Positions 62,035-64,000 of a stretch of 64,000 bases of DNA are shown piece by piece. Every line of letters starts with the position of its first letter. Position 1 is the stretch's first letter. A program made the position numbers and the translations under genes. Source of the stretch: Methylococcus geothermalis (GTDB lineage: Bacteria; Pseudomonadota; Gammaproteobacteria; Methylococcales; Methylococcaceae); assembly GCF_012769535.1 (NCBI RefSeq), contig NZ_CP046565.1, positions 434,001 through 498,000 on the forward strand, read 5' to 3'. The notes beneath the pieces are model-generated. The model searched no databases. It saw only the letters and a list, made by a program, of their open reading frames with translations, and had not been told where the DNA came from.

Positions 62035-62055
62035 ACGCATGCTTCGATCATGCGT
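62035..62055. promoter_or_regulatory. Inverted repeat upstream of the Cys-containing precursor
   Basis: ACGCATG-CTTCGAT-CATGCGT is a perfect 7-base inverted repeat 31 bases before the precursor ATG. It could be a protein-binding site or a leader hairpin next to the GGAGGA ribosome-binding site. Confidence 0.4.
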
Positions 62056-62085
62056 CATTCCTTACCTTGGAGGATTCGAGCTGCT

Positions 62086-62424
62086 ATGAGCAATACATTC
62101 CAGAAAACCTCGCTGTCGACCGTCGTGGGCACCGCCCTCGCGACCTCCCTCTCGGCCGGTGCCGTCGTGGCCGCCGAGAATCCTTTCGCCGCCAAGGAAC
62201 TGACGAGCGGTTACATGCAGCTCGCCGAAGCCGGCAAGGATCAAAAGGAAATGAAGTGCGGCGCCGAAGTGATGAAAAGCAATCCGGAGATGAAATGCGG
62301 CGCCTCCATGATGCAAGGCACCGATGCCAAGGCAGATGCCAAGGCAATGGAAGGCAAGTGCGCCGGCATGAAGAAGGATGGCGCATCCCCGGCTCCGGCT
62401 CCCGCCGAAACGCCGAAGCCCTAG
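62086..62424 (+). CDS. Small secreted Cys-containing precursor (HvfA/bufferin-like)
   Basis: This 112-residue product has a long signal peptide (1-30, ending GAVVAA) and a mature N-terminus ENPFAAKELTSGYMQLAEA, as seen in HvfA-like precursor peptides. Three cysteines occur in short repeats: EMKCG (58), EMKCG (71) and EGKCA (92). The tail is proline/alanine-rich. In this family a DUF692 enzyme modifies cysteines in EGKCG-type motifs, giving metal-binding groups. The DUF692 gene follows by 27 bases. The ATG at 62086 is preferred to one at 62050 because it gives a proper signal peptide. Confidence 0.8.
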   Translation: MSNTFQKTSLSTVVGTALATSLSAGAVVAAENPFAAKELTSGYMQLAEAGKDQKEMKCGAEVMKSNPEMKCGASMMQGTDAKADAKAMEGKCAGMKKDGASPAPAPAETPKP

Positions 62425-62451
62425 TATCTTCGGTTTGGCGGCCCGGCCGGG

Positions 62452-63303
62452 ATGGTCGAGAAAGCTACCGGCATTCGCGGCGCAGGCCTCGGCCTGCGTC
62501 GCAGCTTCATCGAATCGGTCGTCGCCGATCCTCCCGGATCGGTGGATTTCTACGAGGTTGCACCCGAAAATTGGATGCGAATGGGCGGCCGCAATGGCCG
62601 CCTGTTTCGCTCCTTGACCGAACGCCTCCCCTTCGTCTGCCACGGGCTGACGCTTTCCCTCGGCGGGCCGACGCCGCTGGACGAATCGTTTCTCACCGAA
62701 CTCAAGGCGTTCCTGCAACTTCACGGCATCTCGCTGTACAGCGAACACCTAAGCTACTGCAGCGACCAGGGACATCTCTACGATCTGCTGCCCATTCCGT
62801 TCACCGCCGAAGCAGTGGGCTACGTCGCGGAACGCATCCGCCGAGTCCAGGACATTCTGGAGCGGCGCATCGCCATCGAGAATGTGTCCTACTATGCCGC
62901 ACCGGGCCGGGAAATGGACGAGCTCGACTTTCTCAACGCGGTGCTCGCGGAAGCTGATTGCGATCTGCTGCTCGACATCAACAACATCTACGTCAACAGC
63001 GTCAATCACGGCTATGACCCGTTGACCTTCCTCTTGGGCCTCCCGCCCGAGCGCATCGTCTACGCCCACATGGCCGGCCATTACGTGCAAGCCCCGGATT
63101 TCCTGGTCGATACCCATGGCGCGCCAATCATCGATCCGGTATGGAAGCTGCTCGACACCGCCTACGAGGCCTTCGGCACTTTCCCCACGCTGTTGGAACG
63201 CGATTTCAACATACCTCCGCTGGCCGAACTCCTAGACGAAGTCGCCGCCATCCGAAGCTTGCAGCAGCGAGTGGCCGAGCCCGCATTACGACGCCATGGC
63301 TGA
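62452..63303 (+). CDS. DUF692 multinuclear non-haem iron oxidase (MNIO)
   Basis: This 283-residue TIM-barrel enzyme belongs to DUF692, the family of MbnB (methanobactin) and HvfB/BufB. Such enzymes use two or three iron ions and oxygen to remodel cysteines in precursor peptides. Ligand motifs are present: [45 protein letters not shown] and [12 protein letters not shown]. The neighbouring secreted Cys protein is its likely substrate. Confidence 0.93.
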
Positions 63304-64000
63304 AGTTGAACTCGCCTTCCAGCGTCTGCAGCGGGTGTTTGCGTCCCATGTCCGGGACCCCGCCCGATACCCCGCGCCGGCCGGCGTTCCCCCCGAACGC
63401 ATGGCAATCTACCGGGAGCTGCTATACAACAACATCGAAAGCTTCGTCGGCAACGGATTCCCGGTCATCAAGCGGCTTCTGGGCGAAGCAAGCTGGAGCG
63501 CGCTGATACGGGATTTCTTTGCCCGTCACGTCTGCACGACACCGTATTTCTCCGAAATCTGCGAGGAATTCCTCGTCTATCTGGAAGAAGAACGGGACGC
63601 GCGCGAGGAGGACCCGCCTTTCCTGTTCGAACTCGCGCACTACGAATGGGTCGAACTCGCCCTGGCGATTCACCCGGCCGAGGCATTTCCAGTGTCACCC
63701 GGTTTGCCGTCAAACTGGCCGGAGCGGGGCATCGAAATCTCGCCCTTGGCCTGGCACCTGGCCTACCGCTATCCGGTCCATCGCATCGGTCCGGACTTCA
63801 TGCCGGTGTCTCCACCGGAAACTCCGAGCTTCCTCCTGGTCTATCGCTGCCGGGAAGACCGGGTCAGATTCCTGGAAAGCCCGCCTTTGCTCTATCGCTT
63901 GTTCCGATTTTTCGAAGAGGCCCAAGCGCGGCCCACCCAATGGCATATCGAGCAACTTGCGGAAGAAACCGGCGGTGATGCAGCGGTCTTGAGCCAGCAG
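63295..64000 (+). CDS. DUF2063 domain protein, MNIO partner (3' end cut off)
   Basis: The frame is open from the ATG at 63295, which overlaps the DUF692 stop by nine bases, to the window edge (235 codons). The product begins with a DUF2063 domain ([40 protein letters not shown]), followed by [15 protein letters not shown]. In HvfC/BufC-type proteins this domain binds the precursor and presents it to the MNIO enzyme. It is incomplete at the right edge. Confidence 0.9.

Follow-up and report, generated by a model that had tools for sequence, protein, structure and literature searches.

What might a peptide-maturation locus with few, scattered cysteines do in a methane-oxidising bacterium? The question is raised by the right end of a 64,000-nucleotide stretch of Methylococcus geothermalis DNA (the window, G000:C1:434001-498000 of a 3.37-Mb single-contig genome). 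At 62086-64000 an earlier note had described a signal-bearing peptide with three Cys motifs (EMKCG, EMKCG and EGKCA) followed by DUF692 and DUF2063 genes, and all are present in that order on the + strand, as an hvfA-like gene, hvfB and hvfC. On balance, we believe that the trio is a minimal hvfABC RiPP operon of the oxazolin/captophorin class, in which three Lys-Cys sites would become 5-thiooxazoles on a peptide that is exported, binds Cu(I) and buffers copper; we give this reading a probability of roughly 0.78. The features, in window coordinates, are these:

62069..62073, + strand: GGAGG, ribosome-binding site of the precursor gene, conserved in 6 Methylococcus genomes
62086..62424, + strand: hvfA-like precursor gene, an open reading frame of 112 aa with Cys at residues 58, 71 and 92
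62086..62175, + strand: predicted Sec signal peptide, residues 1-30, expected cut before ENPF (from reading the sequence only)
62176..62229, + strand: conserved leader ENPFAAKELTSGYMQLAE, presumed HvfC recognition region, drawn from alignments of related precursors
62248..62262, + strand: predicted modification site 1, EMKCG (Cys58)
62287..62301, + strand: predicted modification site 2, EMKCG (Cys71), 13 residues past site 1
62350..62364, + strand: predicted modification site 3, EGKCA (Cys92); FonB tolerates Ala after Cys (PMC13097082)
62452..63303, + strand: hvfB, MNIO (DUF692) peptide maturase, 283 aa
63296..64000, continuing to window-equivalent 64054, + strand: hvfC, DUF2063/RRE partner, 252 aa

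The hvfC frame is cut by the window end, its stop lying 54 bases beyond (full frame L002:3297-4055), and its start overlaps hvfB by 8 bases. A second in-frame ATG stands upstream of the precursor start, at 62050; the extension that it would add is missing in M. capsulatus Texas, and we take 62086 as the start because it is conserved across the other Methylococcus species. The operon is preceded by a ClpB gene on the opposite strand and followed by a large convergent gene that reads as AsmA/DUF748-like. The earlier note had suggested the right flank as a place to seek a DoxX or transporter gene: neither lies past the window end, and a genome-wide profile search found no DoxX (PF07681) in the whole genome. 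Scans of the locus for sigma-70 promoters and terminators gave no signal above chance. We did observe an inverted repeat, CGCATG-N7-CATGCG, at 62036-62054, upstream of the hvfA ribosome-binding site, which most Methylococcus genomes retain, M. capsulatus Texas by way of one compensating change. We record it without putting it forward as an operator, since the observed number of 6-bp inverted repeats was reached in 10% of shuffles.

The proposal of an MNIO-RiPP cluster was borne out by the two enzymes, which place it in the HvfABC type, each scoring above the curated cut-off of its NCBI model: HvfB reaches 429 bits on NF003818 (cut-off 360) and 349 bits on PF05114, and HvfC reaches 268 bits on NF050145 (cut-off 142) and 90 bits on PF09836, the DUF2063 family, with PF22106 also matched. 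Among solved structures, sequence comparison puts 3BWW, an MNIO of Histophilus (E 4e-74), nearest to HvfB and 3DEE, the gonococcal partner protein (E 5e-8), nearest to HvfC; these matches settle the fold families of both proteins. In FonB, an Arg-Arg and an Asp-Phe pair set the preference for Lys-Cys and serve as catalytic base (PMC13097082), and Arg16-Arg17 and Asp251-Phe252 of HvfB correspond to FonB Arg15-Arg16 and Asp249-Phe250. The conserved His/Glu/Asp/Asn set of HvfB is retained in 76-78 of 78 relatives. By motif, Asn178, Asp220 and His222 equate with the HvfB residues N175, D242 and H244, the loss of which abolishes activity (PMC13419390). Judged by these positions, HvfB retains the residues that the usual Lys-Cys 5-thiooxazole chemistry should need.

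It is the precursor that departs from type. Its signal, as read, has a charged start, a hydrophobic stretch and V-A-A ahead of the cut, and is followed by the leader and then by the three sites, which lie in the stretches EMKCGAEVMK, SNPEMKCGASMMQGTDAK and AMEGKCAGMK. The leader is plainly homologous in alignments to those of tandem-repeat HvfA precursors and, by that comparison, is an ordinary HvfA leader. The mature peptide, predicted at about 8.5 kDa (computed monoisotopic mass 8504.95 Da), contains eight Met and a Pro/Ala tail. The peptide has exactly three Cys, spaced by gaps of 13 and 21, so that no two sites are adjacent, and it scores 11.6 bits on the NCBI HvfA core model (KCGExKCG_twice) against a cut-off of 19.5; because there is no adjacent EGKCG pair, we file the cluster as a variant rather than a typical HvfA locus, in agreement with the earlier description of its Cys motifs as fewer and more scattered than usual. 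Since the core model misses the precursor, automatic annotation probably calls the gene hypothetical; in Pfam, too, it matches no family. Each site nonetheless stays within the sequence limits measured with FonBC (Glu at position 1, any residue other than Pro at 2, Lys at 3, and Gly or Ala at 5; PMC13097082), including the Ala at position 5 of the third. The gene is present in all six Methylococcus genomes, where the three motifs are invariant, and its dN/dS (omega) between species is 0.05-0.20; the precursor gene is under purifying selection.

How unusual is such a precursor? MNIO loci were read from 81 genomes of the order, and 79 of the 81 carry MNIO clusters; the kind is therefore common. 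More widely, a six-frame profile search found at least one HvfA-like peptide in 75 of 274 Gammaproteobacteria. Precursors elsewhere in the order have up to 14 Cys, mainly as EGKCGEGKCG pairs, and a form with four sites, EMVCGEGKCG-x-QMMK-x-PEMNCGAM...KAMEGKCAGMK, is found in most genera of the Methylococcaceae. Only one site of the pair is left in Methylococcus (6/6) and in genus g11 (7 genomes), with a following gap of 13 in 13/13, whereas nearly all relatives outside these two genera keep it. Among the tabulated precursors, a 5-residue Cys gap is missing only from those 13, from the single-site L080 and from the 13-Cys L112 and L113. Met makes up on average about 10% of the tandem-free set versus about 3% of sampled classical repeats, and the four-site relatives are as Met-rich as the tandem-free set. 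In enzyme trees the two three-site groups lie near each other and the form needs two changes (one-clade test, p 0.066), so that it may have arisen once or twice. Beyond the order, longer precursors often contain isolated sites, and of 28 precursors checked, one with a complete frame (L166) is without any adjacent pair; two further pair-less cases there have a broken frame or run into the end of a contig. Uniqueness is thus partly rejected: with isolated-site precursors in other Gammaproteobacteria, the three-site form is unusual, not unique. The suggestion that the product may be new is overstated, given the usual Lys-Cys residues, the ordinary leader, the spread of MNIO clusters through the order and the isolated sites elsewhere. 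The reduced precursor is a real, lineage-specific variant of a known and common operon kind.

Other precursor forms were seen along the way. Two members of genus g2, in the same family, go further in reduction: L080 retains just one EMKCG site, and L051 lacks a recognisable precursor beside its intact HvfB gene. L112 and L113, in family f8 of the order, have long HvfA-leader precursors with 13 Cys at irregular gaps of 4 to 18, many of their sites being EGACG or MKxC without Lys preceding Cys. The order also has MNIO clusters whose precursors are of the Cys-Lys type, such as CFGINACKGQSECATPNNACKG (L012-L033, L047 and others), some with a lipoprotein-like signal.

A second hvf subtype puts the missing DoxX gene in context. 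Three other Methylococcus genomes (L043, L045 and L050) have a second hvf cluster, with a precursor of the form DGKCGEGKCG...EGNCG...EGGCS, what reads as an anti-sigma-like gene upstream, and DoxX nearby; its enzymes form a separate clade. The EGGCS-type subtype also occurs at L071, L086, L106, L115, L118 and L124, and is absent from the window genome and from M. capsulatus Texas. By coordinates compared by eye, DoxX adjoins 7 of 9 clusters of this second (anti-sigma) subtype, as against only one cluster (G054) of the host's subtype, and a missing DoxX is usual for the host's subtype within the order.

The host had been guessed to be a copper-dependent methane oxidiser, and it is one: a pMMO-bearing methanotroph of the genus Methylococcus, as we conclude from the identities of its precursor and enzyme and from two pmoB copies. 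The precursors closest to its own come from Methylococcus, with that of M. capsulatus Texas 89% identical, HvfB is 81-90% identical to the enzymes of five other Methylococcus genomes, and pmoB occurs with identical scores at G000:C1:749817-750956 and 2055258-2056397. Duplicated pMMO operons are expected in this genus.

Consider, then, how the operon might work, with its chemistry, recognition, export and copper binding inferred from characterised relatives. The peptide would be made with its Sec signal and HvfA leader, recognised by HvfC and delivered to HvfB, an iron-dependent MNIO, which would form three 5-thiooxazoles by taking four hydrogens off each Lys-Cys site. After this step the modified peptide would be exported to the periplasm, where three thiol-bearing rings, perhaps aided by the eight Met, could bind Cu(I), so buffering the copper of a cell with abundant copper enzyme. 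Relatives with the same A-B-C set (oxazolin, fontiphorin and gonophorin) do install 5-thiooxazole and bind Cu(I) (PMC13097082; PMC13419390). A difficulty is that FonBC in vitro modified a two-repeat peptide and left a one-repeat peptide unmodified (PMC13097082), and since the precursor here has no adjacent sites, turnover could be poor. Either the full-length peptide makes isolated sites acceptable, or the HvfBC pair here differs from FonBC.

The same FonBC result lends something to the idea that the locus is an eroding relic, in which sites have been lost under relaxed selection and most or all of the remaining Cys escape modification by the enzymes. Site number does fall: against a maximum of 14 in the order there are forms with 4, with 3 and, in L080, with a single site, and L051 has an intact enzyme gene but no precursor that could be found next to it. 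Relaxed selection is hard to reconcile, though, with the low dN/dS of the peptide, with three motifs and a 13-residue gap held invariant across 13 species of two genera, and with intact enzyme residues, and we hold a relic to be quite improbable. Copper-excess buffering, rather than the handling of another metal or stress, is the least certain part of the proposed role. Oxidative stress and gold, besides copper, elicit a response from related clusters (PMC13097082), mercury is suggested by some bufferin fusions (PMC12452194), we identified no metal-specific regulator or operator at the locus, and a comparable Microbulbifer cluster is not copper-responsive and gives little copper protection (PMC12538549), which counts against copper buffering. 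The peptide may thus handle zinc, gold, mercury or oxidative stress, for example, with copper binding incidental; yet every characterised 5-thiooxazole peptide tested binds copper (PMC13097082; PMC13419390) and the copper need of the host is unusually high, and we regard this alternative as unlikely, though a shade less so than a relic. A working, copper-buffering hvfABC operon remains the reading that we prefer.

For the copper-binding compound (cbc) of M. capsulatus, reported since the 1990s, we know of no gene. Might hvfABC be its source, with a released thiooxazole-peptide fragment serving as a non-methanobactin chalkophore for pMMO? The host genome has a single MNIO and, by six-frame profile search, a single HvfA-like peptide; M. 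capsulatus Texas carries the same cluster (L048) and likewise just one MNIO. Evidence for methanobactin in M. capsulatus has been called conflicting (PMC4831470), M. capsulatus Bath has no Mbn operons (PMC3621798), and the cbc of gammaproteobacteria differs from methanobactin in mass and spectra (PMC7709488), that purified from Bath also having a lower affinity (PMC7709488, PMC3912023). Set against this are the size of the predicted mature peptide, far above a small chalkophore unless it is cut, and the neighbourhood, where no protease, exporter or TonB receptor gene adjoins the operon. Furthermore, cbc is mostly extracellular in copper-free medium (PMC7709488), whereas related clusters are tied to copper excess (PMC13097082), and the Bath genome also holds an NRPS candidate. 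Given the size of the peptide, the absence of export genes nearby and the role expected under copper excess, we disfavour hvfABC as the source of cbc, the most doubtful of the alternatives considered here.

Regardless of which metal the peptide meets, the locus matters for two reasons. Work on copper-dependent methane oxidation uses Methylococcus as a model, its copper handling is only partly known, and as the only MNIO locus in the genome hvfABC offers a single place to test the contribution of a captophorin. The other reason is the three-site precursor: as a clean natural substrate, it lends itself to the question of whether adjacent Cys pairs are a requirement of HvfBC enzymes. Ordinary as a member of its family, the operon holds moderate interest, both for its variant form and because it opens a part of Methylococcus copper biology to testing.

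Among known systems, methanobactin (MbnABC) shares with the locus the MNIO superfamily, methanotroph hosts and a presumed Cu(I) ligand, but here there is a signal peptide, a DUF2063 partner and a predicted 5-thiooxazole in place of an oxazolone-thioamide; the assignment was rejected, the enzyme scoring 33 bits on the MbnB model TIGR04159 (cut-off 325), with HvfC as partner and a signal peptide on the precursor, where methanobactin has an MbnB/MbnC pair and a short leader-core MbnA that lacks such a signal. Bufferins (BufABC) have in common the Sec signal, an MNIO with a DUF2063 partner and proposed copper buffering; this assignment too was rejected, with 268 bits on the BufB model NF050167 (cut-off 310) and a 3-Cys precursor lacking DUF2282 or the 6/12-Cys pattern. 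The HvfABC/oxazolin system of Haemophilus influenzae (Buf_EGKCG/oxazolin family) agrees with the locus in the order of its genes, in the orthologue models that HvfB and HvfC match, and in signal, leader and Glu-x-Lys-Cys-Gly/Ala sites, whereas the sites here are three isolated ones instead of three AEGKCGEGKCG pairs, two of them with Met at position 2, in a Met-rich core with a Pro/Ala tail and without DoxX. DoxX is common but not obligatory in HvfABC/oxazolin-captophorin clusters, and fonABC is without it (PMC13097082). Fontiphorin (fonABC) of Fontimonas thermophila, the captophorin type case, is accordingly a three-gene cluster whose Lys-Cys enzyme has the same Arg-Arg and Asp-Phe residues; FonA, by contrast, has seven sites with adjacent repeats, and the 5-thiooxazole demonstrated there is predicted here. 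Other Methylococcaceae (L060, L070 and L088 among them) have an HvfA with four sites, whose leader, Met-rich core and last site, KAMEGKCAGMK, are the same as here; it keeps an adjacent pair, EMVCG-EGKCG, whereas Methylococcus and genus g11 no longer have one.
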